64,000 nucleotides of DNA, taken from positions 1-64,000 of the forward strand of contig SBGP01000066.1 in assembly GCA_006226595.1 (NCBI GenBank). The letters are read 5' to 3'. The notes under the pieces were generated by a model. It worked only from the letters and a program-made list of their open reading frames with translations, ran no database searches and was not told where the DNA came from. This DNA is from Deltaproteobacteria bacterium. Its GTDB lineage: Bacteria > Myxococcota_A > UBA796 > GCA-2862545. A program made the translations under genes and the position numbers. Position 1 is the stretch's first letter. Each line of letters begins with the position of its first letter. Positions 44,207 to 60,940 of this stretch are shown here, one piece after another.

Positions 44207-44671
44207 CTAGCTCGGCGGGTCCTCCGGGTCGGCGAGGACGCGGAAGTATGCGACCTTCACGCGCCGCGCATCCTGCACCCAGCCTTCGAGGAGCACCACA
44301 TCGCCGAAGTAGGGGTCGAGACTCCGCGCGGATGCCGGATCCAGGTAGTAGAAGACGCCACTGTTACGATCTTGAATCCCCAGTTCACCGGCATGCGACA
44401 CAAGCGGGCCGACCCACACGGGAAGCCCGTGCAGACCGTCGTGAACGCGCCAATCCTCGACGTGGATCCGACCGAGCGCCTTCTTGCCCTCGATCTCGGT
44501 GGTGTGACCCTCGAGGAAGTGCAGGGGAGCCGAGTCCTCGGCCAGCACGAGTCGCTCGACCTTGCCGTCGAGCAGGCGCAGCTCGGCGCCCGTCTCGGTG
44601 CCGTAGCAGAAGCCGGTGTGACGCACGGCGCAACCCGTGAGCAGGAGCGCGGAGAGGGAGAGGATTCGCAT
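44207..44671 (-). CDS. small lipoprotein of unknown function
   Basis: A 154-residue lipoprotein (ALLLTGCA lipobox). The mature part is beta-rich with TGAELRLLDGKVERLVLAED, a HVEDWRVHDGLHGLPVWVGP segment, and VVLLEGWVQDARRVKVAYFR, which looks like an OB- or SH3-type barrel. The family is not recognised. It is the most upstream gene of the minus-strand purine/transporter run and is divergent from the unknown plus-strand gene at 44734. Confidence 0.68.
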   Translation of the reverse strand: MRILSLSALLLTGCAVRHTGFCYGTETGAELRLLDGKVERLVLAEDSAPLHFLEGHTTEIEGKKALGRIHVEDWRVHDGLHGLPVWVGPLVSHAGELGIQDRNSGVFYYLDPASARSLDPYFGDVVLLEGWVQDARRVKVAYFRVLADPEDPPS

Positions 44672-44733
44672 GGGCGCGGGGTATCACCCGGGGCTGCGTG
44701 CGTCAGAGGGGCGTGGCGAGATAGGACAGGAAG

Positions 44734-45246
44734 ATGCAGTTCCAGCTGAAGATCCAGAGCCTCCGGCCGCGCGACGCCCGCGACGACGATGCCGTCGGCG
44801 CCCAGCTCGTGGCGGCGGTCCAGCGCGCGATGGCGCGCGGCGTGCCCCCTTCGGCGGCGGTCAGCGTCCGCGACGAGCGCATCGACATCTTCCTCGGTGG
44901 GGACGTGAAGCAGGCGGCGGTGCCGCTGAACCTGTTTCTTGCGAGCCTCACCCGGGCCGAGGCTCCTGGCGGCGAGCTCCACTGCGTCGGACTCATCGGT
45001 GCGCTCACCCATCGGGGCAGCGAGGTGCAGCAGGCGACGGTGTACCTGGAGTGGGCGGACTGCCGGTGGTGGTTGTGGCGAGGGCTGATCGGCACGGACG
45101 GCAAGCTCCGCGACGGCACCGAGTCGCTGCTGCGCGCAGTGGACGGCGACACCAAGCCCATGCTGATCGGCGGCTGGTGGAGCCTCGGGCGGCGCTCGCA
45201 GCTGTCCGCACGCTTCGACCCCCACGCACCGAACCGGGTTCACTGA
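44734..45246 (+). CDS. hypothetical cytosolic protein
   Basis: A 170-residue protein without signal peptide or membrane segment and without a recognised domain. It begins MQFQLKIQSLRPRD and contains a basic/acidic first half (AVQRAMARGVPPSAAVSVRD), VDIFLGGDV-like strands, and a Trp-rich segment YLEWADCRWWLWRG. The start ATG follows AGGACAGGAAG. It is preceded by the divergent lipoprotein gene and followed by the MopE-fibrinogen gene on the same strand. Codon use resembles its neighbours. Confidence 0.55.
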   Translation: MQFQLKIQSLRPRDARDDDAVGAQLVAAVQRAMARGVPPSAAVSVRDERIDIFLGGDVKQAAVPLNLFLASLTRAEAPGGELHCVGLIGALTHRGSEVQQATVYLEWADCRWWLWRGLIGTDGKLRDGTESLLRAVDGDTKPMLIGGWWSLGRRSQLSARFDPHAPNRVH

Positions 45247-45318
45247 CAGGCGGCGGCCACGTGGCGCGCGGCGATGGGGGGTCGCGACGTGTATGCTCCC
45301 CGTGATGGGAGATCCCGC

Positions 45319-47487
45319 ATGCCGCGTCCGGCCTGTACAGCCTTTCTCGTACCGCTTGTCCTCTTCGCTTGCGGAGCCCCTGATCGCTCCGTTGATGCCT
45401 ACGCCGACCCGGTCTCCGTCGACCTGGGGTCGCTGCCCGTCGATGGCGGGGTGCTCACCTTCGAGGTGACCATCGCCAACACGGGCACCGGGGATGGCGA
45501 GATCGCGGATCTGCGCCTCATGGGCGACGATCTGACCTATGTGGCCCTCCCCGAGGACCTGGTCCTGCCGATTGCCGTGCCCGCGGGCGAGGTCACGCGG
45601 GTGCCGCTGACCGTCACTGCGCTCGACCAGCTGCCCGCCGGCTACTTCGAGCAGGCCATGAGCCTCGAAGTGGTCATGGACAGCACGTGGGCCTCCGGCG
45701 GATGCAACGGCAGCGCGCCGGCGACCGACCAGCTCTCGGTCCCGATTACCTTTGCCGTGCCCGACGGTTGCGACGCCGATGACGACGGCTTCCGCAGCAC
45801 GCTGTGTGGCGGCAACGACTGCGACGACACCCTCGCGTCCGTGTACCCGGGTGCGCCCGAGGTGTGCGACTTCGAGGACAACAACTGCGACGGTTCCGTC
45901 GATGGCGCCGACGCGATCGACGCGAGCGAGTGGTTCGCGGACGGCGACGGCGATGGCTATGGCACGGGGGCCGCCACTCTGTCCTGCCTGGCTCCGGGGC
46001 CGGCATTCGCCGCGGCGGATGGCGACTGCGACGACACGGACGCCAGTGTGTCGCCAGGCGCGCGCGAAGTGTGCAACGACATCGACGACGACTGCGACGA
46101 GCTCGTCGACGACCGCGACCCCACCGTCGACCTGTCCACGGGCTCCACGTTCTTCGCGGACCGCGACGGCGACACCTACGGCGACCCGGCCTCGACGCGG
46201 ATCGCCTGCGACGCGCCCGTCGGTTTCGTGGCGCGGACCGGCGACTGCGACGACGGCAAGACCTACGTGAACGCCGGCGCCGACGAGAGCTGCGAGGCGG
46301 TGGCGGGGCAGGCCCTCGACGAGGACTGCGACGGCCGTACCGACGAGTCGACCGCGACCGACGCGCCACTGTGGTACGCGGATCGCGACGGCGACGACTA
46401 CGGTGACGCCACCAGCCGGCAGCGTGCGTGCGCCCGTCCCAACGGCTTCGTCGGCAACGCCGGCGACTGCAACGACGGCAGCACCGACATCCACCCGGGC
46501 GTGCCCGAGCAGTGCGATGGCGTCAACCAGGACTGCGACGGCAGCATCGACGAGGAAGCGGGCTCGTTCTACTACCCGGACCGCGATGGTGACGGCTACG
46601 GCGACATGACCCAGGGCGTGCAGTCCTGCGATCCGGTGCCGAACCACACGACCATCGGGGGCGACTGCAACGACCGGAGCTTCCTGCACAACCCCGAGCA
46701 GCCCGACACCTGCGCGGATCTCGAGGACTACAACTGTGACGGCGAGCCGGAGGACGGCTGCTCTTCCTGCGAGGAGCTGCTTGCCGACGGCGTGGCGAGC
46801 GCCGACGGCATCTACACGCTCGACGTCGACAGCAACGGCGACGGTACCGCCGACGGCACCCTCGACGCCTACTGTGACATGAGCACCGATGGCGGTGGGT
46901 GGACGCTGATCCAGCGCACCCTGTGGGACTGGGCCGACAACTCCGCGATGGTCACCGGCTTCGACAGCTGGGCCAACGTCGAGGTCAACGGTCCCGACGG
47001 AGATCAGTCCTACCGCATGCCGGGACGCCTGCTTCCCGTGATGGGGCCCGGCGGCGAGATGATGGTCATGCATCGCGCGCGGACCACGGCCGGCGGACGC
47101 TGCCAGCCGATGTACTACACGGCCACGGGTGGCAGCTTCACGGTGGACGCGGCCGCGAAGACCGCGTCGCTGGGCAACCTCTCGTCGCCGGCGATTCTCG
47201 CGTACACCAACCTGACGACCGCGGACAGCGGCTCCTCCTCGCAGTGCATCGATCGCGGTGGCGTGCCGGGCTTCTACCAGTCCTGCTGCAAGACCTGCCC
47301 GAGCTTCCAGGGCCCGTCGACGAACCTGTATTGGACCGACGAGCCACATCCGATGGCGAACTACCTCGACGACACGCCCGACATCTTCGGAAACGTGCTC
47401 TCCGACCGCTGCATCCAGACCCCGCTCGAGGCCGACAACAGCTCGGGATACTGGGGCATCGACACCATGGAGTTCTACGTGCGCTGA
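45319..47487 (+). CDS. lipoprotein with MopE-like metal-binding repeats and fibrinogen-like domain
   Basis: A 722-residue lipoprotein (LVLFACG lipobox). An N-terminal Ig-like module (about 25-135) is followed by five MopE-type Asp/Cys repeats, each combining GDCDDxxxxVxPGxxE, CDxxxxNCDGxxD and YADRDGDxYGD patterns. These resemble Methylococcus MopE and related calcium/copper-binding surface repeats. From about residue 490, a fibrinogen C-terminal-like domain begins with SCEELLADGVASADGIY and CDMSTDGGGWTLIQ, a eukaryote-like carbohydrate- or glycan-binding fold. ATG at 45319 follows GGGAG and begins the signal peptide. It is probably a surface adhesin or metal-dependent lectin; the ligand is unknown. 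Confidence 0.85.
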   Translation: MPRPACTAFLVPLVLFACGAPDRSVDAYADPVSVDLGSLPVDGGVLTFEVTIANTGTGDGEIADLRLMGDDLTYVALPEDLVLPIAVPAGEVTRVPLTVTALDQLPAGYFEQAMSLEVVMDSTWASGGCNGSAPATDQLSVPITFAVPDGCDADDDGFRSTLCGGNDCDDTLASVYPGAPEVCDFEDNNCDGSVDGADAIDASEWFADGDGDGYGTGAATLSCLAPGPAFAAADGDCDDTDASVSPGAREVCNDIDDDCDELVDDRDPTVDLSTGSTFFADRDGDTYGDPASTRIACDAPVGFVARTGDCDDGKTYVNAGADESCEAVAGQALDEDCDGRTDESTATDAPLWYADRDGDDYGDATSRQRACARPNGFVGNAGDCNDGSTDIHPGVPEQCDGVNQDCDGSIDEEAGSFYYPDRDGDGYGDMTQGVQSCDPVPNHTTIGGDCNDRSFLHNPEQPDTCADLEDYNCDGEPEDGCSSCEELLADGVASADGIYTLDVDSNGDGTADGTLDAYCDMSTDGGGWTLIQRTLWDWADNSAMVTGFDSWANVEVNGPDGDQSYRMPGRLLPVMGPGGEMMVMHRARTTAGGRCQPMYYTATGGSFTVDAAAKTASLGNLSSPAILAYTNLTTADSGSSSQCIDRGGVPGFYQSCCKTCPSFQGPSTNLYWTDEPHPMANYLDDTPDIFGNVLSDRCIQTPLEADNSSGYWGIDTMEFYVR

Positions 47488-47547
47488 CGCCGGTGGCCCG
47501 AGCGCAGCCCGGCGGATAGAGGCTGCGTTCCCCAGCGGAGGATACGC

Positions 47548-50500
47548 ATGTTCGAGCGCCTGAAGTCTCCTGTCGACCTGGAAGAGGAAGTCCTCGAGTT
47601 CTGGGAGAAGGAGCGAATCTTCGAGCGCAGCATCGAGCAGGCCAAGGACCGGCCTCCGTTCGTGTTCTTCGAGGGTCCGCCGACCGCCAATGGCACGCCG
47701 CACAACGGCCACGTGCTCACCCGCGTGATCAAGGACGTGTACCCGCGCTACCGCACGATGCGCGGCTACCGCGTCGACCGTCGCGCCGGCTGGGACACCC
47801 ATGGACTTCCGGTCGAGGTCGAGGTCGAGAAGGCGCTCGACATCCACGGCAAGGAAGCCATCGAGGCCTACGGACTCGAGCAGTTCTCCCGGAAGTGCAT
47901 CGACAGCGTGTTCACCTACATCGGTGAGTGGGAGCGCCTCACGAAGCAGATCGGCTTCTGGGTCGATCTCGACGACGCGTACGTGACCTTCCACCGCCAC
48001 TACGTCGAGAGTGTGTGGTGGGCGCTGGCCCGCCTGTTCGAGAAGGGCCTGCTGTACCAGGGCCACAAGGTCGTGTGGTGGTGGCCGCAGGGCGGAACCA
48101 CGCTCTCCGCCGGCGAGGTCGGCATGGGCTACAAGACCGTCGACGACCCGGCGGTCACCGTGCGCTTCCGCGACGCCGAGGATGCCAGCGTCTCCTACCT
48201 CGCGTGGACGACGACCCCGTGGACGCTGCCGTCCAACGTGGCGCTCGCCGTTGGCGCGGACATCACCTACGCGTACTGCGCCGACCCCGAGGGCGGTACG
48301 GTGGTGCTCGCCGAGGCCCTCGCCGAGGCCTTCGGGCTCGAGGTTCAGCGCACGGTGAAGGGCAGCGAGCTCGTCGGCAAGCGCTACACGCCGCTGTACG
48401 CCTTCGAGGGCGAGCCGGCCGCGCCGGGCGAGCAGTACGTCATCGTCACTGGCGGTCACGTGACGACCAGCGCGGGCACGGGCATCGTCCACACCGCGCC
48501 TGCCTTCGGCGAGGACGACATGCTCGTCGCCAAGGAGCATGGCCTCGCGATCCTGCAGTGGATCGACCCCGCCGGGCGCTTCACGCCGAACGCCGGTGAG
48601 TTCGCGGGCATGTTCTGCAAGGAAGCCGATGTGCACGTCATCCGCGACCTGAAGGAGCGCGGGCTGATGTTCAAGCGGGACACGGTGCGCCACGAGTACC
48701 CGTTCTGCTGGCGTGCCGACAGCGACCCGCTCATCCAGTACGCGCGGCCCGCGTGGTTCATCCGCACCACCGCGAAGAACGCCGAGGCGCTCGAGAACAA
48801 CCAGGCGGTGAGCTGGCTGCCCGAGCACATCCAGGAGGGCCGCTTCGGCGACTTCCTGCGCAACAACGTCGACTGGGCCCTGTCCCGCGAGCGCTTCTGG
48901 GGCACGCCGCTCCCGATCTGGGAGTGCCCCGAGTGCGAGGCCCGCTGGGCCGCCGAGAGCACCGAGGCCATCCTCGCCAAGAACCCGGATGCGTTCTCGG
49001 ACGACGTCGACATCCACCTTCAGGTGCACAAGCCCTGGATCGACGGGGTCACCGTTCCCTGTGACTGCGGCGCTCAGATGAACCGCGTCTCCGAGGTCAT
49101 CGACTGCTGGTTCGACAGCGGGTGCATGCCCTTCGCGCAGTGGGGCTTCCCGCACAAGAACCGCGAGGAGTTCGCCCAGGCCTTCCCCGCGGACTTCATC
49201 TCCGAGGCGGTGGATCAGACGCGCGGCTGGTTCTACAGCCTGCTGATGATCTCGACCCTCGTGTTCGACGACGAGACCTGCCAGGAGTACGGCCTCGACC
49301 CCGTGGGCATGCCGCGCCCCTACAAGAACTGCATCGTGCTCGGCCACGTGTGCGACATCGACGGCCGAAAGGAGTCGAAGTCCAAGGGCAACTACACCTC
49401 GCCCGACCTCGTGCTGCGCGGGTTCACGCACCAGGTGGCGCTGCCCGACCCGCAGCTCAAGCCCGGTCAGGTGGGCCTCAAGTCCGAGCAGGTGAAGAGT
49501 CTCGACCTCGCCAAGCACGAGCTCATCCGCCTCGCGGCGGAGGGGGAGAGCGACGAGGTGTCGTGCCGCGTCGTCGCCGCCGACGTCGATCCCCGCGTGA
49601 AGGATACGGTGCACATGCACCCGGACGACCTCGCGGCCATCGGGCTTCCGCCGGAGGGTGGGCGCGTGCGGTTCACGATGCCGATCGACCCGCCGGGTGC
49701 GGATGCCTTCCGCTGGCTGTTCTGCGCATCCACGCCGCCGTGGAGCAACACGCGCCTCTCGCTGCGCGCCATCCGCGACGGGCAGCGTGAGTTCCTCATG
49801 CGCCTGCGGAACGTCGTCCAGTTCTTCAGCATCTACGCGAACATCGCCGCAGAGCAGGGGACCTTCGACCCGAAGGCCGGTGCGCCGCGGTCGCTGGACC
49901 AGCGCTCCGAGCTCGACCGGTGGATCGGGGGCCGCGTGTCGGCGACCGTCAAGTCCGTCGAGTCCTACATGGACGACTACCGTCTGTACGAGGCGGCCCG
50001 CGAGATCAGCGCCCTCGTCGACGGCCTGTCCAACTGGTACGTGCGCCGCTCGCGCGCGCGCTTCTGGGGAGAAGGCGACGACTCTCAGGATGCGCTGTGG
50101 ACCCTGTACGAGGTGCTTCGCAGCGTCACCCGGCTCATCGGGCCGTTCGTGCCATTCACCGCCGAGGCCATGTGGGGTGTGCTCGAGCGCGCGCCGTTCG
50201 GCGATGCGGTGGAGCCGTCCGTGCACCTCGCGTCCTGGCCCGAGGCTGGCGAGGTCGACGAGCAGCTCGACGCGCACATGGATCTCGTTCGCGAGATCGC
50301 CTCGCTCGGACTTTCCGCGCGCGCGGCCACCGGCATCAAGGTGCGCCAGCCGCTCGCAGCGGTGACCGTGGTGCTCGCCGACCCCAGCCAGCAGGCGGCG
50401 GTCGAGCGCCTCGCGTCGCTGATCACCGACGAACTCAACGTGCGCGAGGTTCGCTTCGCGACCGAAGCCCAGGAGTTCGTGGACTTTGCGGTCAAGCCGA

Positions 50501-51009
50501 ACTTCAAGGCCCTGGGTCCGAAGCTCGGCAAGGGCGTGAAGGAAGTCGCCAAGGCGCTCTCGGGACGTGACGGCGCGGAGATCAAGCGCGCGCTCGACGG
50601 CGGCGGCCTCGAGCTCGAGATCGCCGGCAACCGGGTGACGATCACCAGCGCCGAGTGCGACGTGCGGGTCAGCGCGAAGGCCGACTACGAAGCCGCCAGC
50701 TCCGCGCGCGCCGTGGTCGTGCTCCACACTCAGCTCGATGACGACCTGCGCGCCGAAGGCTTCGTGCGCGAACTCACCAATCGCGTCCAGAACCTCCGGA
50801 AGGAAATGGATCTCGGCTACACGCAGCGGATCGCGCTTCAGCTCGACGGAGACGACGTCGTTCGGCAGGCGCTCGCCTCGTTCGGCGATGCGCTGGCCCG
50901 CGAGACTCTCGCAAAGACCTGGCAGATCGGCGAGCCGGAAGGCGACGGCGAGCGCCGCGAGTGGGACGTCGAGGGCCGCGTCGTGACCGCCGGTGTGCAA
51001 GCGCTGTAG
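47548..51009 (+). CDS. ileS: isoleucyl-tRNA synthetase with an insert
   Basis: An 1153-residue class I synthetase that charges tRNA-Ile and edits valine. HIGH appears as PHNGH (51-55) after GPPTANG; GWDTHGLPVEVEVEK and the CP1 editing domain follow, and KMSKS appears as KESKS (608-612). The protein is about 100 residues longer than typical IleS2-type enzymes. The extra segment lies at about 620-710 between the KMSKS loop and GADAFRWLF, where normal enzymes have only a few residues. The architecture (no C-terminal zinc motif) fits the eukaryote-like IleS2 branch. The start ATG follows GGAGGA. Confidence 0.96.
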   Translation: MFERLKSPVDLEEEVLEFWEKERIFERSIEQAKDRPPFVFFEGPPTANGTPHNGHVLTRVIKDVYPRYRTMRGYRVDRRAGWDTHGLPVEVEVEKALDIHGKEAIEAYGLEQFSRKCIDSVFTYIGEWERLTKQIGFWVDLDDAYVTFHRHYVESVWWALARLFEKGLLYQGHKVVWWWPQGGTTLSAGEVGMGYKTVDDPAVTVRFRDAEDASVSYLAWTTTPWTLPSNVALAVGADITYAYCADPEGGTVVLAEALAEAFGLEVQRTVKGSELVGKRYTPLYAFEGEPAAPGEQYVIVTGGHVTTSAGTGIVHTAPAFGEDDMLVAKEHGLAILQWIDPAGRFTPNAGEFAGMFCKEADVHVIRDLKERGLMFKRDTVRHEYPFCWRADSDPLIQYARPAWFIRTTAKNAEALENNQAVSWLPEHIQEGRFGDFLRNNVDWALSRERFWGTPLPIWECPECEARWAAESTEAILAKNPDAFSDDVDIHLQVHKPWIDGVTVPCDCGAQMNRVSEVIDCWFDSGCMPFAQWGFPHKNREEFAQAFPADFISEAVDQTRGWFYSLLMISTLVFDDETCQEYGLDPVGMPRPYKNCIVLGHVCDIDGRKESKSKGNYTSPDLVLRGFTHQVALPDPQLKPGQVGLKSEQVKSLDLAKHELIRLAAEGESDEVSCRVVAADVDPRVKDTVHMHPDDLAAIGLPPEGGRVRFTMPIDPPGADAFRWLFCASTPPWSNTRLSLRAIRDGQREFLMRLRNVVQFFSIYANIAAEQGTFDPKAGAPRSLDQRSELDRWIGGRVSATVKSVESYMDDYRLYEAAREISALVDGLSNWYVRRSRARFWGEGDDSQDALWTLYEVLRSVTRLIGPFVPFTAEAMWGVLERAPFGDAVEPSVHLASWPEAGEVDEQLDAHMDLVREIASLGLSARAATGIKVRQPLAAVTVVLADPSQQAAVERLASLITDELNVREVRFATEAQEFVDFAVKPNFKALGPKLGKGVKEVAKALSGRDGAEIKRALDGGGLELEIAGNRVTITSAECDVRVSAKADYEAASSARAVVVLHTQLDDDLRAEGFVRELTNRVQNLRKEMDLGYTQRIALQLDGDDVVRQALASFGDALARETLAKTWQIGEPEGDGERREWDVEGRVVTAGVQAL

Positions 51010-51081
51010 TACTTGGGCATCGCCCGACGCTTCCGTCTCACATCCTCCTGACGTAGGATGACCCTGATCCAGGGGAAGAGC

Positions 51082-53790
51082 ATGCGTCTCGTCGGTCGTA
51101 TCGGAGTGCTCGCGCTTGCGGCGCTCCTCCCAAGTCTCGCCTTCGCCGACCCGAAGGACGACGCCCGTCGCCACTTCGTGGCCGGGCTCGAGGCAGCCAA
51201 GGCAGAGCAGTTCGAGGTGGCGCTGCAGCACTTCCTCGCTGCGCAGGATGCGTTTCCGCACCCAGCCACCCTCTACAACATCGCCCGAACCTATACGGAC
51301 CTCGGCGATTACCAGAACGCGCTGACCTACTACCGTTTGTTCCGCGACCTCGACCCGAGTCGTGCGGACGAGGTGGACCCGGTCATCGATGCGATTCAGA
51401 TGCGTCTGGCTCAGCGCACCGCGCCGACGACGGTCACCCAGGGCACGCCCACCCAGACCACCGGTGGTGGCGGTGGTGGCGAGGGCCTGGGCACGATCGT
51501 GGTCAGCGGCGCCACCGACGAGGAGATGGCGCGCATCGACGCGCTCACCGCCGAGCTCGAGGCGCTCTCCACGTCGATCAAGGAGCGCATGGCGAACCCG
51601 CCGATTCCGGAGCCGATTCCGGGTGATCCGACCACGGGTGGTGAGCTGCCCGACGTCGACCCCGAAGAGCTTCCGCCGTCGGCCGGCGGCGAGGGGTCCG
51701 AGATCCCGAACCTGCCGGGCGGTGGCTACGCGGAGGCCGCGTACGAGCGTCAGGTCGTCACCGCGTCTCGCTATGGTCAGGATCCGCTCGACTCGCCGTC
51801 CACGCTGACCGTGGTCACGGGCGAGGACATCCGCATCATGGGCGCCACCTCGCTCCGCGAGATCTTCCGCCGGGTGCCGGGCTTCGAGGTCGCCGAGTTC
51901 ACCGTGGGCAACGCGCCGACGTCGATCCGCGGCTTCAACGACGAGCTGTCGAACAAGATTCTCATCCTCATCGACGGTCGGTCGACCTACGAGGACTACC
52001 TCGGCACCACCTTCAAGGAGACGTTCCCGGTCGCTCTCGACGAGATCGAGCGCATCGAGATCATCCGTGGTCCGGGTTCCGCGGTCTATGGCGCCAACGC
52101 CGTGACCGGCGTCGTCAACATCATCACCCGCACCCCGGGTGAGGGTGGCAGCAGCGTGCGCATCGAGGCGGGCAACTCCGCGCGACTCGATCCGCAGGGC
52201 TTTGGCGGCTACACCCGCGGCGAAGGCGTGACCAGCGGCCGCAGCGGCGACACCGCCTACCGCCTGAGCGCCGGGTTCAAGACCTACGGACGCTGGGAGA
52301 AGGACTTCGAGGCGGGCGACTTCGCGTCGCACGACCTGTACCAGCAGGACCAGGACATCGGCCTGGTGAACCTCAAGGCGCACGGTCGCATCGACCGGAC
52401 CTTCCTGGCGGGCGATGGCTTTGCGAGTGTGTCTGGCGGGTTCTCCGACACGGACCTCGAGTTCCAGAACCAGGGCGTTCTCAACACCTACGGCGCGCGG
52501 TTCAAGACCCACTACCTCCGCGGTGACCTCGCCTACGGGCCGGTCCACCTCCGTGCCTTCTGGAACTCCAGCTACAGCAACGACATCGATCGCTGGGCTG
52601 ACCAGGTGGACCACACGTTCCCGGTGGCCTTCGCCGTCGACGCCGATGTCTTCGACGTCGAGCTCGAGGGCAACCAGGAGATCAAGACCGGACCGGTGGT
52701 TCAGCGCGTCAATGCGGGCATCAGCTACCGCATGAAGCAGCTGCAGGACTTCGCGTTCGTGGGGCAGACGCCGGAGCCGCAGACGGCTGCCGAGGTCGCC
52801 GAGTGCACCGCACGCACGCGCTTCGTCGAGATGCCGGACGGCAGCTGCGGGCTGCGCGAACATCACTTCGGTTTCTTCCTCCAGGACGAAGTGACGATGC
52901 GTCGCTTCAAGGTCGTGCTCTCCGGTCGCTTCGACCGCGACCCGAACATCGACCCCAAGAAGACGCTGTCGCCGCGAGCGTCGTTCATCGCGCGCATCGC
53001 GGACCAGACGTCGCTTCGCGCGAACATCGGTAGCTCCTTCCGCGCGCCGAACATGATCGAGAACTACAGCCAGTACGCGCTGCCGACCGGCACCGATGGC
53101 GTGTTCCTGCAGTTCCAGGCGGACCACTTCGAGAAGGTGCAGCCCGAGCGCATCCTCACCGCAGAGCTCGGCGTGCACGACCAGTCGACGCTGTACCACT
53201 CCGCGGACGTGGCCATCTACTACAACCGCCTGGTCGACCGCATCGACATCCGCGACGTAGAGCCGACCCTCGAGTTCTACGACTTCGACATCGGTGGCTA
53301 CCGCGCCGGCTTCTCGGCCTTCGAGAACATCCCGCTCGTCGACGTCGGCTACGGCCTCGAGGCCGAGGCCGAGTTCTACCCGACCGATGGTCTCGACGTG
53401 TACACCAACTTCACGATCGCCCAGCACCTGTGGCTCGAGGACGGTACACGGACCCGGAGCGAGGAGATCTCCACGTTCAAGGGCAACCTCGGCGCGTCCT
53501 ACCGCACGCCGTACCGAACGGACGTCTCCCTCGACGTCAACTACGTCGGTCGCCAGGCCTGGGGCGTGTCCGTCATCGGCTCCGACGGCCTGTTCCGCGA
53601 CACCGTGTACGAGGTACCCGCGCGCCTCTTCCTGAACTCGCGCGTCGGTGTCCGCCCGTTCGAGGACGAGAAGCTCGAGTTCGCGCTCGTCGGCTACAAC
53701 CTCCTGGGCTTCTCCAAGCCGTTCATCGAGCACCCGAAGGGACAACGCGTCGGCGGACGTCTCTTCGGCTCGGTTTCGTACAAGTTCTGA
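51082..53790 (+). CDS. TonB-dependent outer-membrane receptor with N-terminal TPR region
   Basis: A 902-residue outer-membrane receptor. The signal peptide ends ALLPSLAFA. It is followed by a TPR-like region (about 24-110, DARRHFVAGLEAAKAEQFEV and LYNIARTYTDLGDYQNALTY) and a low-complexity Gly/Pro linker. Then come a TonB-box-like QVVTASRY, a plug domain with LREIFRRVPGFEV, ILILIDGRS and IEIIRGPGSAVYGANAVTGV, and a 22-stranded barrel ending in Phe (VSYKF). ATG at 51082 was preferred over 51058 because AGGGGAAG lies just upstream and the signal peptide then starts correctly. It is followed 7 bases later by a lipoprotein gene, a likely partner. The ligand is unknown. Confidence 0.92.
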   Translation: MRLVGRIGVLALAALLPSLAFADPKDDARRHFVAGLEAAKAEQFEVALQHFLAAQDAFPHPATLYNIARTYTDLGDYQNALTYYRLFRDLDPSRADEVDPVIDAIQMRLAQRTAPTTVTQGTPTQTTGGGGGGEGLGTIVVSGATDEEMARIDALTAELEALSTSIKERMANPPIPEPIPGDPTTGGELPDVDPEELPPSAGGEGSEIPNLPGGGYAEAAYERQVVTASRYGQDPLDSPSTLTVVTGEDIRIMGATSLREIFRRVPGFEVAEFTVGNAPTSIRGFNDELSNKILILIDGRSTYEDYLGTTFKETFPVALDEIERIEIIRGPGSAVYGANAVTGVVNIITRTPGEGGSSVRIEAGNSARLDPQGFGGYTRGEGVTSGRSGDTAYRLSAGFKTYGRWEKDFEAGDFASHDLYQQDQDIGLVNLKAHGRIDRTFLAGDGFASVSGGFSDTDLEFQNQGVLNTYGARFKTHYLRGDLAYGPVHLRAFWNSSYSNDIDRWADQVDHTFPVAFAVDADVFDVELEGNQEIKTGPVVQRVNAGISYRMKQLQDFAFVGQTPEPQTAAEVAECTARTRFVEMPDGSCGLREHHFGFFLQDEVTMRRFKVVLSGRFDRDPNIDPKKTLSPRASFIARIADQTSLRANIGSSFRAPNMIENYSQYALPTGTDGVFLQFQADHFEKVQPERILTAELGVHDQSTLYHSADVAIYYNRLVDRIDIRDVEPTLEFYDFDIGGYRAGFSAFENIPLVDVGYGLEAEAEFYPTDGLDVYTNFTIAQHLWLEDGTRTRSEEISTFKGNLGASYRTPYRTDVSLDVNYVGRQAWGVSVIGSDGLFRDTVYEVPARLFLNSRVGVRPFEDEKLEFALVGYNLLGFSKPFIEHPKGQRVGGRLFGSVSYKF

Positions 53791-53797
53791 GGCACAG

Positions 53798-55060
53798 ATG
53801 CTCGCAAACACCTACCGCGCCCTTCTTCTTGCGCTCCCGGCTGGCCTGCTCGCCGTCTCCCTCGGCTGTGACTACGAGGCTCCCCACTCCGAGGACTATC
53901 GCCAGGAGACGCCTCCGAACGTGATCAGCGGCGAGGTCGTCCTCGCGATTCCGATCGAGCAGGAGCTCGGCCACGTCGTGCTCCTCGCCACCGACGCGTC
54001 GAACCCCGGCCCGCCGGAAGGCACGGGCTTCCCGTACACGTTCACGACCGTGCCGCCGAGCGCGTTCACGCGTGGCACCGACGGCCTGCTCTCCGCGAAC
54101 TTCACGATCACCGAACTGTACGACGCAGACTGGCTGATCACCGGGTTCATGGACGTCGACAACGACTTCTCGGCCCTGTTCGGCGAGTTCGGCGGCGCGA
54201 CCTGTGGTGACGTGCTCGGCGCGCACATCGACAGCGTGACCACGCAGAACATCGTGCCGGTGACGGCGACGGGCGGCGACCACGTCGAGAACATCGCGGT
54301 GACCCTCGGCCAGCAGCTCACCGTCGAGCGTCCCGCGTTCACGATCGAGACCGCGCAGCTCGATGGCAGCAGCGGCAACGGTCCGGACATCGATCTCGCG
54401 TACAACGGCCCGTTCCCGCAGGCCTTCGTCGTGCGTGCGACCCCGATCCACGCCGAGGTCCAGGGACTGAACTACGACCTCGACGGGCCCTTCGACCTCA
54501 CCGATCCGCAGGAGTGTCAGACGGGCATCCTCGTCGTCGCCAACGACAAGGATGGGGACGGCGTCATCGACTTCCACCCGCTGTTCGGCGACCCGGTGCT
54601 CGACATCACTCCGCAGGTCTACCTGACCTTCCTCGGTGAGTCTCAGAACGAGGACGGCACGTGGAACTCCAGCCTCGGACCGAACGAGAGCTGGGCGGGT
54701 CTCGCCGCGTACAGCATCCTCGCGCTCCAGCCGCTCCGCGACATGGCGCGTGCGGATGGCCGTGACAACGATGCGGACGGCGTGGTCGACGAGAGCACCG
54801 AGGAGCCCGTGAACACGCCGTTCCTGCTACCCGAGGCGACGCTGATGTGGCTGCCCGCGGGCCTACACACCGATGGCGACGAGGACTGGCTCGAGACCGA
54901 TCCGCTCGCGCTGCCCCGCGGACACTGGGACATCACGCTGATCTCGGACTCCGGCCAGACGTGGACCGTGCCCAACGATCTCGCGTACTTCCCGTCGACG
55001 GACAGCGCCTACGACCCGGCGCGTCAGGCCGAGACGCTGCAGACCTTCGGCCCCGAGTAG
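53798..55060 (+). CDS. lipoprotein partner of the TonB-dependent receptor
   Basis: A 420-residue lipoprotein (signal LPAGLLAVSLGCD, lipobox SLGC) encoded 7 bases after the receptor. Its beta-rich body contains two DxDxDG calcium-loop-like sites (NDKDGDGVIDFH and DNDADGVVDES). The family is not recognised. The tandem TonB receptor-lipoprotein arrangement is common where the lipoprotein captures or presents the substrate (as in SusCD or HemR/HmuY-like systems), though no SusD-type helices are seen. A role in substrate capture at the cell surface is inference. Confidence 0.72.
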   Translation: MLANTYRALLLALPAGLLAVSLGCDYEAPHSEDYRQETPPNVISGEVVLAIPIEQELGHVVLLATDASNPGPPEGTGFPYTFTTVPPSAFTRGTDGLLSANFTITELYDADWLITGFMDVDNDFSALFGEFGGATCGDVLGAHIDSVTTQNIVPVTATGGDHVENIAVTLGQQLTVERPAFTIETAQLDGSSGNGPDIDLAYNGPFPQAFVVRATPIHAEVQGLNYDLDGPFDLTDPQECQTGILVVANDKDGDGVIDFHPLFGDPVLDITPQVYLTFLGESQNEDGTWNSSLGPNESWAGLAAYSILALQPLRDMARADGRDNDADGVVDESTEEPVNTPFLLPEATLMWLPAGLHTDGDEDWLETDPLALPRGHWDITLISDSGQTWTVPNDLAYFPSTDSAYDPARQAETLQTFGPE

Positions 55061-55149: not shown

Positions 55150-56214
55150 CTACTGAGGCGGCTCGAGGATATCCGGCCACAGCTCTTCGGCCCGGCGTCG
55201 TCCGCGGCGAACCTGGGTGCAGAACCACGTCCAGTTGCCGATGTGGTCGCCGGGAGGCGTGGCCTCGCAGACCTCGAAGGTCTGGTACTCGGCCTCGGTG
55301 ACGAACTTGCCGCCGAGGAAGCGGTACATCTGGATGAGCTGCCGAAGTGCGTCGCCCTCGCGGTCCACGCCCAGCGCGGCGCGAAGGCCGACGGCCACCG
55401 AGTCTTCGGCGGCGCCCAGGGGCGGGAGGATGCTGTGGGCGGGCAGCTGCACGAGGTGGCTCGCGAGCTCGGCGAGGGCGTGAGCCAAGGGAAGGTCGCG
55501 GCCGTGGTCCTCGCGGGCGAGCGAACGAATCGTCTCGAGCCACTCCTCGGCGTCGTCGCGGATGGCGGTGGAGAGCCCATCGAGGATCCACGCGAGCTCT
55601 GAACCCTCGAGCTGCTCGCGGAAGGCGTCCGCGTCGAGGTCGGCAGGCAGCGGGTCTTCGCTCGAGAACGAGGAGTTCACGTACCGGGTGATCGGCTGAC
55701 CGCGGGTGCCCGACAGGGCGCGACCGGCGCGCAGTGCCAGCGAGATGCGGGTGAGGGGAGGGACCTCGGCGCCGAAGAGCACGTCGAGCACCGCGGGGTC
55801 GGTGGACATGCCCAGGGTCTCCATCGCGCGGCGAAGCTGCTTGGCGGCGCGACGGGCGGGCACGCGAGGGTCCTTGGAGAGGCGGACGTACGCCTGCGTC
55901 GCGGGGTGGGCGCCCTCACCGGAGCGACCCACCTCGAACCAGCCGTCGACGCCGTGGGGCGTGGCGCTGACGATGAGCGGGCGACCCGGAGGACCGGGCA
56001 CGATCACGGTGCCGCCGACGCCCTCTTCGCGGCCTACGCCACATCCCGCAAGGGGCGGCGCGTAGAGGAGCGCGGGGCCCTCGACCGGCACCCAGTCGGT
56101 CTCGTCAGAGAGCACCTGGACGTGCAGGAGCAGTCCGAGCTGACGAGCGCGGGTGAGCAGGAGGATGCCGGCAGTGACGGCGGCGGGCGCACTGCCCGTG
56201 AGCACGATGTCCAT
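55150..56214 (-). CDS. hypothetical protein
   Basis: A 354-residue protein not assigned to a family. The N-terminus MDIVLTGSAPAAVTAGILLLT is hydrophobic and could be a membrane or Rossmann-like first strand/helix rather than a signal. Further segments are DETDWVPVEGPALLY, a helical region RVPARRAAKQLRRAMETLGM, and a C-terminal part ending with EYQTFEVCEATPPGDHIG and QVRRGRRRAEELW. It starts 7 bases after the KptA-NUDIX stop, with GAGG upstream, so it is likely co-transcribed with that fusion gene and may belong to the same pathway. Confidence 0.6.
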   Translation of the reverse strand: MDIVLTGSAPAAVTAGILLLTRARQLGLLLHVQVLSDETDWVPVEGPALLYAPPLAGCGVGREEGVGGTVIVPGPPGRPLIVSATPHGVDGWFEVGRSGEGAHPATQAYVRLSKDPRVPARRAAKQLRRAMETLGMSTDPAVLDVLFGAEVPPLTRISLALRAGRALSGTRGQPITRYVNSSFSSEDPLPADLDADAFREQLEGSELAWILDGLSTAIRDDAEEWLETIRSLAREDHGRDLPLAHALAELASHLVQLPAHSILPPLGAAEDSVAVGLRAALGVDREGDALRQLIQMYRFLGGKFVTEAEYQTFEVCEATPPGDHIGNWTWFCTQVRRGRRRAEELWPDILEPPQ

Positions 56215-56221
56215 CGAGGCC

Positions 56222-57238
56222 TCAGGGTTCGAACAGGGCCGGCAGCGCCCGGTCGCGGAGGAGCTCTCGGGTGCGCTGCATCAGCGGAATCAGGCTGGTG
56301 TGGCGGACAACCCTACACGCCTCGTCCGGCGTGAACCATTTCACGGCGCCGATGCCCTCGCGCGACGACGGATCGAAGGCGTCCATCTGGGCTTCTGGAC
56401 GAACGAGGAAGAGGTACACCCGCTTGAGGCGCGGCAGCCCACCCGGGGCCATGAAGCCGTAGCGAACCTCGCCGAGCGGAGCGAGCACGGTGAACGGCAC
56501 GTCGATGCCCATCTCTTCGCAGATCTCGCGGCATCCTGCGGTCTCGGGAGACTCGCCGGGCTCGAGCTTGCCCTTGGCGACTTCCCAGGTGGCGCGGTTG
56601 CGGCGCTTCACCTTGATCAGGCACAGCTCGGGGGTGCCGTCCGGACGCAGGCGCACGGGAATGCCACCCGCCGAGAGCTGCTCGGCGTAGTTCGGCTGGA
56701 GGTTGAGCACGTGCGCGAGTGGCACCTTCTCGGCGAGGAACAGGCCACTGCGACGGCTGCGGCTGAAGTTCACCCCGCCACGCTTGGCGCGGGACGCGTC
56801 GATCACGAGCAGCCGCGGCTCGCCACGGAAGCGATGCGCGGTCCGCCACGCGCCGACCTCGTCGCCCGAGAACACGAGGGGGCGATTGCCGGCGAACAGC
56901 CCTCCCTTCTCGAGGACTTCGTCGACGCGATCCGCCGTGGTGGCGTGGAACAGGATGTCTGGGTGGGCTGGGGCGCGGCGGCCCCCACCGCGTCGGGCGC
57001 GGGCGCGGATCATCGAGCCGCGAAGCTCGAAGCCACGGCCGTTGGTGGCGATGTCCTGGATGACATCGACCCGCACCTCGCGATGCACGAGGCGGGAGAC
57101 TGCATCCACGAGCTCGACCAGGCCGACCCACCCCTCACTGTCAGGGCACAGGTTGCCGCGGTCAGGCCGGTGGCGCAGCAGAAACGCCATCGTCTTCGAG
57201 AGCCGGACATCGTCCGGCTCAGCGCGATTGTTCGACAT
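56222..57238 (-). CDS. KptA/Tpt1 RNA 2'-phosphotransferase fused to NUDIX hydrolase
   Basis: A 338-residue fusion. Residues about 10-178 match KptA/Tpt1, which removes an internal RNA 2'-phosphate using NAD+, giving ADP-ribose 1'',2''-cyclic phosphate and nicotinamide. Conserved sites are LLRHR (Arg22, His23), Arg78 in the IRA motif, HAT in place of HGT, and Arg119 in NRPLVFSGD. Residues about 190-338 are a NUDIX domain with a complete box GX5EX7REUXEEXGU (223-245), GKLEPGESPETAGCREIC onward. NUDIX enzymes cleave nucleoside diphosphate-X compounds, including ADP-ribose derivatives, so it may process the KptA product. ATG at 57238 is chosen from the KptA N-terminus; there is no clear Shine-Dalgarno site. 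Confidence 0.82.
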   Translation of the reverse strand: MSNNRAEPDDVRLSKTMAFLLRHRPDRGNLCPDSEGWVGLVELVDAVSRLVHREVRVDVIQDIATNGRGFELRGSMIRARARRGGGRRAPAHPDILFHATTADRVDEVLEKGGLFAGNRPLVFSGDEVGAWRTAHRFRGEPRLLVIDASRAKRGGVNFSRSRRSGLFLAEKVPLAHVLNLQPNYAEQLSAGGIPVRLRPDGTPELCLIKVKRRNRATWEVAKGKLEPGESPETAGCREICEEMGIDVPFTVLAPLGEVRYGFMAPGGLPRLKRVYLFLVRPEAQMDAFDPSSREGIGAVKWFTPDEACRVVRHTSLIPLMQRTRELLRDRALPALFEP

Positions 57239-57361: not shown

Positions 57362-57970
57362 TCAGCGAGACGTGAGCCGGCGCGCGGCTTCGCTCCACGC
57401 TCCGGGGCGGCGCACGAGGACGGCCTCGAGGCCCAGCGCATGCGCGGCGGCGATGTCTTCGACCTCGTGGTCCCCGACGTGGACAGCCCGCGACGCGCCG
57501 AGCTGACGGAGCGCTTCGCGAAACAGGGCGGCGTCGGGCTTGGCGACCCCATGCTCCTCGGCGAGCACGACGGCATCGAGGTCTTCGCGCAGTCCGAACG
57601 CGTCGAGCAGGGCATGGGCGCGCGCATCCATGTTGCTCACGACGGCGGTGGGATGGCCGTCGCGGTGAGCCTGGCGCAGCACGGAGACGCCCTCCTCATC
57701 GACCCGCCACGCTGCCGGCTCGGCGTAGGCGGCGAACAGCTCCTCGAACAGCGCCGGGTCGTCGCTCGCGAACGCTTCGTGGACGACGCGCCGCCAGTAG
57801 CCCTTGCCAAGGGCCTGGTCGTGCGTGCGCATCGCCGCGCGAAGGCGGGCGCCGAGGGCTTCCCGGGAGGGCGACTGCCCGTGGCGCGCCCCGATGCGCA
57901 GGTACACGTCGAGCACCGGCTCGGCGAGGTGGAGCAGGGTCCCGTGCAGATCGACGAGCAGGGCCTTCAC
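57362..57970 (-). CDS. HAD-superfamily hydrolase
   Basis: A 202-residue HAD subfamily IA protein. Motif I reads LLVDLHGTLLH, with the nucleophile Asp but His in place of the usual second Asp. The cap is helical. Motif II is AVVSNMDARA, motif III includes EEHGVAKPDAALF with Lys, and motif IV reads HVGDHEVEDI. The DLHGT variant suggests a non-phosphatase or altered specificity within the HDHD3/dehalogenase-like group. GTG at 57970 overlaps the stop of the SNase gene (GTGA), so the two are co-translated although one is secreted and the other cytosolic. Confidence 0.8.
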   Translation of the reverse strand: MKALLVDLHGTLLHLAEPVLDVYLRIGARHGQSPSREALGARLRAAMRTHDQALGKGYWRRVVHEAFASDDPALFEELFAAYAEPAAWRVDEEGVSVLRQAHRDGHPTAVVSNMDARAHALLDAFGLREDLDAVVLAEEHGVAKPDAALFREALRQLGASRAVHVGDHEVEDIAAAHALGLEAVLVRRPGAWSEAARRLTSR

Positions 57971-58803
57971 GGGGTCGCGGACTTGACCTCGTGGTCGCGC
58001 GCATCGATGACCTTGCCGAAGCGGTCGTAGATGGTCGCGCGGTCGCTCTTGTTGTTCCAGATGGGCGTCGCCGAGCCGAGGTAGATCTCGAGCTGCTCGC
58101 CAGGGCTGGTCTGGTGCTCACCCACGCCGGAGAACACCTTCACCGTGTGTCCGGGAGGAATCGTCAGCGCGGGGAAGGTGTATGACTGGCCGGTGGACTT
58201 GGCGATGCGGTAGCCATCGACGTTGACCGGCTCGTTGGTGACGTTGCACACACGCAGGTACTCGCCGTTCACGTTCTCGCGGTCGTCGCCGGGAGCGTTG
58301 GCGTGGAACGAGGTGATGTGCAAGGCACCCTGGTAGCGGTCCGTGCTCCAGATCCCGCGCTTGGCTGCCTGCGCCTTGGCCTGTGCCTCGAGGAACGGGG
58401 TCAGGTCCGTGTCGTCCGGCGGAATGATGAACAGGTGGGCCAGACCGAGCTCGAGCAGGTGGATGGAGAGGTTGCCGCCGTCCTCGCGCTGCAGGCCCGA
58501 GACGATGCGCCCATAGCCGTCGCGGGGATTCTCGCTGCCGAGGAGCAGGGTGATCTCGCCGGTGAGGAAGGCGACGGCCGCTTCACGCGCCTCGACGCCA
58601 TAGGCCTCTGCGGGCTTGAGCTCCGGCGTGTTCACCCAGCGCAGGCGGATCTTGTCGCCGGTAGCCAAGGTCACGGTGTCGCCGTCGTACACGCTGGCCA
58701 CCGTCGAGGACTTCGGCGGAAGCGGCCATCCACCGGGCGGCGGGCCTCCGGCGAGTGCGATGGACGAGGCGAGGAGCAGGGTGGCGGCGATCAGTGAGCG
58801 CAA
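57967..58803 (-). CDS. secreted SNase-like nuclease with lamin-tail domain
   Basis: A 278-residue exported protein: signal peptide ending SSIALAG, an SNase (thermonuclease) domain (about 30-155) with VYDGDTVTL, IRLRWVNTPELKP, GVEAREA and RDGYGRIVSG, which carry the Asp, Arg and Glu pattern of staphylococcal nuclease. A C-terminal lamin-tail (LTD) domain follows (about 165-278: LHITSFHANAPGDDREN, VNVDGYRIAKSTGQ, YTFPALTIPPGHTVKVFSG). SNase-LTD proteins act on extracellular or periplasmic DNA/RNA. TTG at 58803 is chosen because GGAGG lies 7 bases upstream and the signal peptide then begins at residue 1. Confidence 0.87.
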   Translation of the reverse strand: MRSLIAATLLLASSIALAGGPPPGGWPLPPKSSTVASVYDGDTVTLATGDKIRLRWVNTPELKPAEAYGVEAREAAVAFLTGEITLLLGSENPRDGYGRIVSGLQREDGGNLSIHLLELGLAHLFIIPPDDTDLTPFLEAQAKAQAAKRGIWSTDRYQGALHITSFHANAPGDDRENVNGEYLRVCNVTNEPVNVDGYRIAKSTGQSYTFPALTIPPGHTVKVFSGVGEHQTSPGEQLEIYLGSATPIWNNKSDRATIYDRFGKVIDARDHEVKSATP

Positions 58804-58867: not shown

Positions 58868-60940
58868 CTAGGGCTTCTTCGCCTGGGTCGCGAGTCGCTT
58901 CATCTCGCCGATGCGATCGGCCTGCCACAGCATGTAGATGTCGTCGGGCGACAGGCGGGCGGCCGCGAGCGCGGCGGTGTGTGCCTGCTCGAGCTCCCCG
59001 CGGGACAGGTGGACCATCGCCTTGGTGTCGAGGAAGTCCGGGCGGTCACCGGTCTCGTCGAGTGCGGAGGTGATCAGCGCCAGCGCCTCGTCCGGGTACA
59101 CCTCGGCGAGCGCGTAGTACCAGGCCGTGCAGTTCTGCGAGGTCGGTGAGTCGGGCATCTGCGCGCAGTCGCGGGCAATGCCCTTCTCCATGGCCTCGAG
59201 CGCCGCGTCGCGGTTGCCCATGGCCACCTGGCTCGCGACCAGGAAGTCGAGCGGGCGGTCGCCGGGGTGAAGGCGGTTCACCGTAAGGTCGAGGTCGGCG
59301 AGGAAGGTCTGCCGGCTCGCGTCGTCGTCGGGCAGCTGGCTGTAGAACCACAGGTACATGCCGCTCGCCGGGTAGAGGACGAGCAGCCGCCGCAGGTGGG
59401 CCATGGCGCCGAAGGCGTCTCCGCGCGCCAGGGCGACGCGGGCGCGGCGCACGAGGTGGGCGTCGGGGTTACCGGCGAGGCGCGCCGAGTCGAGCAGGGC
59501 CTGGTTCGCGGCCGTCCACTCCTGGCGGGCATAGAGCACGTCGGCCAGCGCCTGAGGTCCGGCCCACTCGTCCGGGCGGTCGGCCATCGCGGCGCGCGCC
59601 AGAGCCTCGGCCTCGTCGAGGCGCCCCTCGAGGACCAGGCCGTTCACGCTCGCTTCGAGCTCGCCGGTGTCGATGAGCGCGCCGGCCGGCAGCGGCTCGA
59701 GCACCGTCCACGCCGCCGCGAGATCGCCGTTGAAGCGATGCACGTTGGCGAGGAGCACGGTCGCCTCGGCGTACTTCTCCTCGTCCGCGCCATCGAAGGC
59801 CCGGTAGCGCTCCAGCTCGGCCACCGCCTCGTCGAGGCGGTCGAGCGCGATGAGCAGGCGCGCGCGGTACAGCGACTGCTCGGGGATGCCCTCGGCGCCG
59901 TGCTTGGCGATGTCCTGGTCGAGGAACAGCTGGTGCCCGTCGACCAGGCGCTCCTTGCCCTTGCTCTTCGACAGGCCGAAGCGACCGCCCTGGTAGTCGA
60001 ACCACACGACGTGCGAGGCCATGAGCTCGTGACCCACCAGCCCGCGCATGCCGCTGGGTCCGATGAAGCGGTCGCCCTGGTCGTAGTTGAGCCAGCGCGC
60101 TTCGAGGGCAAGGTCGACCTTCTGGCCGCCCAGGCGCATGTGGTCGACGGGAATGCGGCGCGTGGGCTTGAGGAACTCGGAGGCCGGCAGCTGCTCGGGT
60201 GCGCCGAGGCCGAGCACGGGCTCGACGCCCTCGGTGTAGTCCTGCTCGAACGGCTGGCCGCTGTGGCCCGAGAGCAGCAGCCCGCCTGCGCCGGTGTCGA
60301 TCTGGATGATGATCTGGTCGCTGTGCGGCGGGTCGGCGTCGGTGGTGATCGTGAGCGGCGCGAACACGTGGCCGCCGTCGAAGAACATGGGGTCGCTCTT
60401 GCGCGGCAGCTTCGCCGTGCCCGGCCGATGCAGGGTCATCTGGTCGTGCGGGTAGTCGATCTCCAGGGTGAACCGCGCCCACACGTTGTTGCCGAGGATG
60501 CCGTCGAGGGGCAGAGCGCCCGCGTATTCGGGCAGCCCGCGAATGCCGACGGCGACCTCGACGCCGGGGACGACCACGTCGCCGAAGGCCATGGTCGAGA
60601 CCACCGCGCGGTCCATGGGAGCGCGGCCGCCGAGGCCTTCGATGTAGGAGTAGCCGCGCTCGATCTCGAGTCCCAGGCGCTCTGCCGTCTCTTCGGAGAG
60701 CGCGCTGATCGCGGCGCCCGTGTCGACGAGGAACAAGCCCTTCTCGCCGTCCGGCAGCACGGCCTGCACGTAGATCCGGTTTCCGCCGGGGAAGGTGCGG
60801 ACGAGGTCGACGGTCTCGGCGTCGGGGCCTTCGTACACGAGGTTCGACGCATCGAACTCGCTGCCGAAGGACTCGGGCATGCTCGGACGCGCGCAGGCGA
60901 CCAGGGAGGCGGCAAGGAGCAGGACGGGAGAGGTGCGCAT
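58868..60940 (-). CDS. lipoprotein with retropepsin-like aspartyl protease domains and TPR region
   Basis: A 690-residue lipoprotein (SLVACA lipobox). The protease part (about 40-340) has two Asp-Thr-Gly sites, FLVDTGAAISAL and IQIDTGAGGLLLS, separated by LDGILGNNVWARF and DYPHDQMTL as in clan AA single-chain aspartic proteases with paired lobes. It is followed by a TPR-rich helical domain (about 345-690, for example LDRLDEAVAELERYRAF and AWTVLEPLPAGALIDTG). It is probably a periplasmic or surface protease with a partner-binding solenoid. ATG at 60940 starts the signal peptide. Substrate unknown. Confidence 0.82.
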   Translation of the reverse strand: MRTSPVLLLAASLVACARPSMPESFGSEFDASNLVYEGPDAETVDLVRTFPGGNRIYVQAVLPDGEKGLFLVDTGAAISALSEETAERLGLEIERGYSYIEGLGGRAPMDRAVVSTMAFGDVVVPGVEVAVGIRGLPEYAGALPLDGILGNNVWARFTLEIDYPHDQMTLHRPGTAKLPRKSDPMFFDGGHVFAPLTITTDADPPHSDQIIIQIDTGAGGLLLSGHSGQPFEQDYTEGVEPVLGLGAPEQLPASEFLKPTRRIPVDHMRLGGQKVDLALEARWLNYDQGDRFIGPSGMRGLVGHELMASHVVWFDYQGGRFGLSKSKGKERLVDGHQLFLDQDIAKHGAEGIPEQSLYRARLLIALDRLDEAVAELERYRAFDGADEEKYAEATVLLANVHRFNGDLAAAWTVLEPLPAGALIDTGELEASVNGLVLEGRLDEAEALARAAMADRPDEWAGPQALADVLYARQEWTAANQALLDSARLAGNPDAHLVRRARVALARGDAFGAMAHLRRLLVLYPASGMYLWFYSQLPDDDASRQTFLADLDLTVNRLHPGDRPLDFLVASQVAMGNRDAALEAMEKGIARDCAQMPDSPTSQNCTAWYYALAEVYPDEALALITSALDETGDRPDFLDTKAMVHLSRGELEQAHTAALAAARLSPDDIYMLWQADRIGEMKRLATQAKKP

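Follow-up and report, generated by a model that had tools for sequence, protein, structure and literature searches.

Enzymes of the KptA/Tpt1 family (PF01885) depend on an essential Arg-His-Arg-Arg tetrad, in CthTpt1 R18, H19, R68 and R121, of which the first three residues lie in the RNA lobe and the last in the NAD lobe; a Lys (Cth K66) is non-essential by mutagenesis (PMC6333775). As a side activity, Tpt1/KptA enzymes also ADP-ribosylate 5'-phosphate RNA (PMC6582358). Among NUDIX enzymes, ApnA hydrolases are marked by a Tyr in a loop that follows the NUDIX box, and ADP-ribose diphosphatases carry Pro (PMC5389931). The substrates of the ApnA hydrolases RppH and NUDT2 include RNA with 5' polyphosphate ends, which they trim (PMC5389931, PMC8616924); these RNA 5' pyrophosphohydrolases have an ApnA-type NUDIX domain without a KptA module. 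Both kinds of domain have been described in a single chain, as Bodo saltans virus encodes a 'tRNA 2'-phosphotransferase/Ap4A hydrolase' (A0A2H4UTN1), listed with tRNA repair genes (PMC5871332), and a coupling of 2'-phosphate removal to product disposal has already been proposed for this protein (PMC9503650). With this precedent, the KptA-NUDIX architecture is already known. The preliminary description of the locus studied here knew of no protein of this design that had been characterised; this may be true of the biochemistry, but the architecture (PMC5871332) and the coupling idea (PMC9503650) are both in print. In the open-access literature searched, we found neither a bacterial KptA-NUDIX fusion nor an order-wide bacterial family with repeated lobe loss and a linked partner.

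The window, meaning the whole stretch of 64,000 nucleotides that was analysed, carries on its minus strand a gene for the same two domains in one chain (56222..57238; its ATG at 57238 gives a protein of 338 aa). The Bodo saltans virus protein is its top viral structural match and aligns over the full length (339 columns, E 6.7e-20). However, the two are 21% identical, and whereas the viral protein belongs to a protist virus, the window fusion is a bacterial core gene with RNA-lobe losses and a linked partner.

A vertically kept fusion gene of one bacterial order

The open frame extends from 57349, past the ATG at 57238, to 56222 with zero frameshifts. Pfam assigns residues 9-163 to PF01885 (PTS_2-RNA, Tpt1/KptA; E 5.6e-12; 46.5 bits, cut-off 26) and residues 198-307 to PF00293 (NUDIX; E 8.8e-14; 52.1 bits, cut-off 21.1). 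In sequence searches of the PDB, the solved structures matched by the first half were KptA/Tpt1 enzymes, and those matched by the second half were Ndx1, the Aquifex Ap4A hydrolase and DIPP. A Tpt1-like domain followed by a full NUDIX box in a single uninterrupted chain, as first described, is thereby confirmed, with the N-terminal half assigned to KptA/Tpt1. All on the minus strand, the protein comprises a winged-helix-like KptA RNA lobe (residues 10-80; 56999..57211), a KptA NAD lobe of ART fold (residues 92-182; 56693..56965) and a NUDIX domain (residues 183-330; 56249..56692), the last identified by Pfam, fold match and invariant catalytic residues. An AF2 model of the whole protein reached a pLDDT of 92.7, with about 58 in the linker. 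TkoKptA was the top Foldseek and best PDB match to the KptA half (181 columns, rmsd 15.1, TMt 0.45); the two lobes of the model do not superpose jointly on KptA structures, and their arrangement is uncertain. As linker confidence is low, the packing of the lobes in a manner unlike Tpt1 is weak evidence.

The fusion was present in all 38 relatives searched, as a single copy in each, and a second, weaker match in one genome (G028) is that genome's separate KptA. Because the frame is open in all 38, a frameshift or assembly artefact behind the fusion is ruled out. In a phylum survey, an even draw of 379 genomes with 63 from the window's order, full-length or NAD-lobe-plus-NUDIX matches were found in 58 of the 63; elsewhere among the 379 genomes there was no fusion, and only separate KptA or NUDIX genes matched. 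Other phyla were covered by a contig scan alone, with the motif TWEVAKGK as its only query. The fusion thus belongs to the core genes of one bacterial order and has been kept there by vertical descent. Viral contigs yielded no relative, and phage and plasmid records matched only through separate KptA or NUDIX genes, none with 80% coverage. A horizontally spread system was considered and rejected, as phages, plasmids and viral contigs lack a full-length relative. The fusion-bearing records are labelled as Deltaproteobacteria, Myxococcota or unclassified Proteobacteria MAGs, and some are evidently mislabelled; those titled Klebsiella pneumoniae or Bifidobacterium breve (L047, L054, L056, L063, L077 and L078) look to be such cases, as the gene is order-specific.

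The same genome encodes a separate canonical KptA (120 bits), a few kilobases from RtcA (RNA 3'-phosphate cyclase) and RtcB (RNA ligase; L082:8188-13572, G000:C8), which makes this region a neighbourhood of RNA repair genes; the genome also has three macrodomain genes and 12 NUDIX matches. Neither the repair of RNA 2'-phosphates nor the processing of ADP-ribose therefore has to rely on the fusion. RtcB occurs in 37 of the order's 63 genomes, which makes RNA repair less widespread there than the fusion. Elsewhere in the window, a protein with SNase and lamin-tail domains (57967-58803) has homologues less than 8 kb from the fusion, on either strand, in about 19 loci, and a clan AA aspartyl protease with TPR repeats (58868-60940) has homologues near it in about 18. 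A 3184-aa open frame on the minus strand (44257-53811), antisense to a TonB-receptor-like gene (51058-53790), is probably a chance frame in GC-rich DNA.

Residue and lobe losses in the KptA half

For residue-level comparison, the fusion of the window and those of 49 non-redundant loci, 50 members in all, were aligned to eight canonical KptA proteins of the same phylum. Both lobes are shared with KptA/Tpt1 enzymes (TkoKptA 9ld4, CthTpt1 6e3a) in sequence and fold, and the tetrad is complete in all eight canonical copies. The window fusion keeps R22, H23 and R78 of the tetrad as well as H98 and T100, the latter two as HAT in place of HGT, but its fourth tetrad Arg stands one residue off register (N118/R119). 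Unlike KptA/Tpt1, it has a NUDIX domain attached, and it lacks the Lys (Cth K66) and the (Q/Y)GHS motif, which are likewise absent from the other lobe-bearing fusions compared, whereas the Lys and GHS are invariant in the eight canonical copies. Across the 50 members, R22 is present in 36, H23 in 32 and R78 in 34, and 30 members carry Arg at either 118 or 119. Even if either register of the fourth Arg is accepted, all four residues occur together in only 12 of 50, and the tetrad with H98 and T100 in 8 of 50, all from the window's own family (the window and seven relatives). Most of the fusion family, unlike KptA/Tpt1, has thus lost the tetrad; among the 22 lobe-bearing members outside the window's family, the fourth Arg is kept in 3 and lost in 19. 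The tetrad that the preliminary description proposed to align is therefore there in the window as far as Arg-His-Arg, and the full set is no family-wide trait. As R22, H23, R78, H98 and T100 are kept, Tpt1 activity is possible in the window's species. The window's family still has these residues and the off-register Arg, and the RNA lobe is under purifying selection where present, so some members of the fusion family may retain Tpt1 chemistry.

The RNA lobe is wholly absent from 11 of the 50 members. In eight of these 11 loci, the partner gene described below ends 38-195 bp before the trimmed NAD-lobe start, leaving no room for an RNA lobe. On a tree of the NAD lobe and NUDIX domain, absence of the lobe maps as three changes, at least two of them forced by well-supported branches; as the lobe is present in all other major branches, we read the absences as losses, and the RNA lobe appears to have been lost at least twice within the order. 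An Arg/Gly-rich stretch lies ahead of the NAD lobe in the window (56963-57007), these genomes being GC-rich, and Arg/Gly-rich N-termini, a short basic tail in members without the RNA lobe, were also seen in L052, L060, L061, L067, L068 and L075.

In the NAD lobe, R136, which aligns with the canonical KptA Arg that cages the NAD phosphates, is present in 49 of 50 members, H98 in 45, and T or S at position 100 in 31; the f3 family has lost the H/T pair of the NAD site. H98, T100 and R136 are all present in each of the 11 members without an RNA lobe. This persistence is what would be expected if the KptA half ADP-ribosylated 5'-monophosphate RNA or DNA ends and the NUDIX half removed the resulting cap, given that Tpt1/KptA enzymes are known to modify 5'-phosphate RNA in this way (PMC6582358) and that NUDIX enzymes decap nucleotide-capped RNA. 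However, other branches have lost the H/T pair, and both activities in one chain would be futile unless regulated, so that we regard such a cycle as markedly improbable.

Mean pairwise identity over the 50 members is 0.38 in the RNA lobe, 0.48 in the NAD lobe and 0.54 in the NUDIX domain, and for most pairs dN is highest in the RNA lobe. Pairwise omega is well below 1 in all three parts wherever calculable; against the window's closest relative, all three regions are under purifying selection, and omega for the RNA lobe between the window and L032 is about 0.2. With low omega on one side and repeated absence on the other, the RNA lobe is expendable but, in the members that have it, constrained. 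The repeated loss of the lobe and the decay of the active site might also suggest that the KptA half is a non-functional passenger, but the omega values that could be calculated for the NAD and RNA lobes (0.03-0.42), the open frame in nearly every genome and a NAD lobe kept in the members compared make this very improbable.

The NUDIX half and its probable substrates

In contrast to the KptA half, the NUDIX half is constant. Its NUDIX box GKLEPGESPETAGCREICEEMGI (residues 223-245; 56504..56572, minus strand) matches GX5EX7REUXEEXGU in full from G223 to I245, and the catalytic residues G223, E229, R237, E238, E241, E242 and G244 are invariant in all 50 members. ADP-ribose diphosphatases have a signature Pro about 15-16 residues past the box. 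At that place the fusion has no Pro; instead, Tyr260 stands at +15, in 48 of 50 members, followed by Gly261 at +16, and the nearest conserved Pro is P265 at +20. When the predicted structure was compared with the PDB, the best fold match of the NUDIX half was the Ap4A hydrolase aq_158 (Z 19.0, rmsd 1.8, 134 aligned); the same fold in ADP-ribose diphosphatases scored Z 15.2. With the Ap4A/Ap6A hydrolases (aq_158, Ndx1, CT771 and NUDT2), the fusion thus has in common the full box, the downstream Tyr and the best fold match, but it carries WEVAKGK for the usual W..PKG and the extra N-terminal KptA module. By sequence and predicted fold, the fusion NUDIX is of Ap4A-hydrolase type, a class assignment that sequence alone cannot turn into a substrate, since NUDIX substrate classes cross over. 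As ApnA hydrolases also trim RNA 5' polyphosphates, an RNA 5' end is a plausible substrate.

These features bear directly on the function first suggested for the locus, in which both halves are active and removal of an RNA 2'-phosphate is coupled to disposal of the NAD-derived product. In favour of this proposal, Arg-His-Arg and the HxT pair are intact in the window fusion and seven relatives, and PMC9503650 put forward the same idea for the viral fusion. Against it, most of the order has lost the catalytic set without any change to the NUDIX domain, and 11 of 50 members are without the RNA lobe; the (Q/Y)GHS motif and the conserved, though non-essential, Lys are absent from the lobe-bearing fusions compared; and the genome has a canonical KptA of its own. 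Moreover, as the NUDIX domain is Ap4A-hydrolase-like, with the ADP-ribosidase Pro missing from its place, its specificity features do not point to disposal of an ADP-ribose product. We therefore consider the coupled pathway unlikely.

The partner gene and what the fusion may do

Only a few bases past the stop codon of the fusion, the window carries a gene for a protein of 354 aa (55150..56214, minus strand), which the preliminary description had thought might belong to the same pathway. A link between the two genes is well supported: in 38 of 49 loci, no more than about 3.2 kb, and mostly less than 200 bp, separates the partner from the fusion. In the window's family the partner is downstream, elsewhere it is upstream, and two loci have it on the opposite strand. 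It was found in 57 of the 379 genomes of the phylum, all inside the window's order. In two f3 genomes (G022 and G031) the partner was undetected and the NAD site is degraded too. As the pair stays together through changes of gene order, comparison of the loci suggests that partner and fusion share a function. The partner gave nothing above cut-offs in Pfam, NCBIfam, PHROGs or PDB sequences. Its AF2 model is of high confidence (pLDDT 95.4, pTM 0.91); Foldseek returned nothing for it at E<=0.001, and VIA-align returned FAD-dependent oxidoreductases and flavoproteins weakly (Z 6-9, best 9.2, about 90-190 residues aligned), so that a flavoprotein-like Rossmann resemblance of the predicted fold is a weak lead only. 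A defence system was considered separately and rejected, as PADLOC had no match for the partner and, for the fusion, nothing beyond a weak and generic NUDIX hit (PDC-S07, E 8e-8).

The partner's faint likeness to a dinucleotide-binding fold, together with an invariant NUDIX domain and a degenerate ART lobe that keeps its phosphate-caging Arg in 49 of 50 members, would fit a NAD lobe that senses NAD+ or ADP-ribose and adjusts the activity of an Ap4A (alarmone) hydrolase; the adjacent protein would then be a regulator or would supply a co-substrate. Loss of the H/T pair in the f3 family and the weakness of the fold match argue against such a sensor, which we hold to be distinctly unlikely.

Comparison across the order establishes the architecture, its spread, the residue losses, the constancy of the NUDIX domain and the linkage; the substrate, the part played by the NAD lobe and joint action with the partner are inferences. 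In the reading we prefer as the most economical, at about an even chance of being right, an Ap4A-hydrolase-like NUDIX enzyme has taken on a KptA module and uses it mainly for binding, next to a partner protein. Its N-terminal half would have been captured from a KptA/Tpt1 enzyme in an ancestor of the order, and the NUDIX domain would be the constant catalytic engine, whose target is most likely a polyphosphate bond, either of a dinucleoside polyphosphate or of an RNA 5' end (triphosphate or nucleotide cap). The NAD lobe may be kept to bind an adenine dinucleotide, an ADP-ribosyl group or an RNA end, and so place or gate the NUDIX substrate. The chemistry of a 2'-phosphotransferase is not what the family conserves, and the RNA lobe is dispensable, having been lost repeatedly. 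Given the conserved linkage and shared phyletic range, the enzyme probably acts with the protein of the adjacent gene. That the stripped NAD lobe, NUDIX domain and partner make up a new NAD- or ADP-ribose-gated hydrolase of nucleotides or RNA 5' ends, as an order-wide core gene, is a doubtful extension.

For the KptA family, this lineage shows which part of the enzyme serves outside RNA repair, as the module is fused to a NUDIX domain, a canonical KptA is found elsewhere in some genomes and the RNA lobe has been shed several times. The RNA-lobe losses form a natural deletion series for assays, and the partner adds a protein family confined to the order, whose fold is predicted with high confidence.
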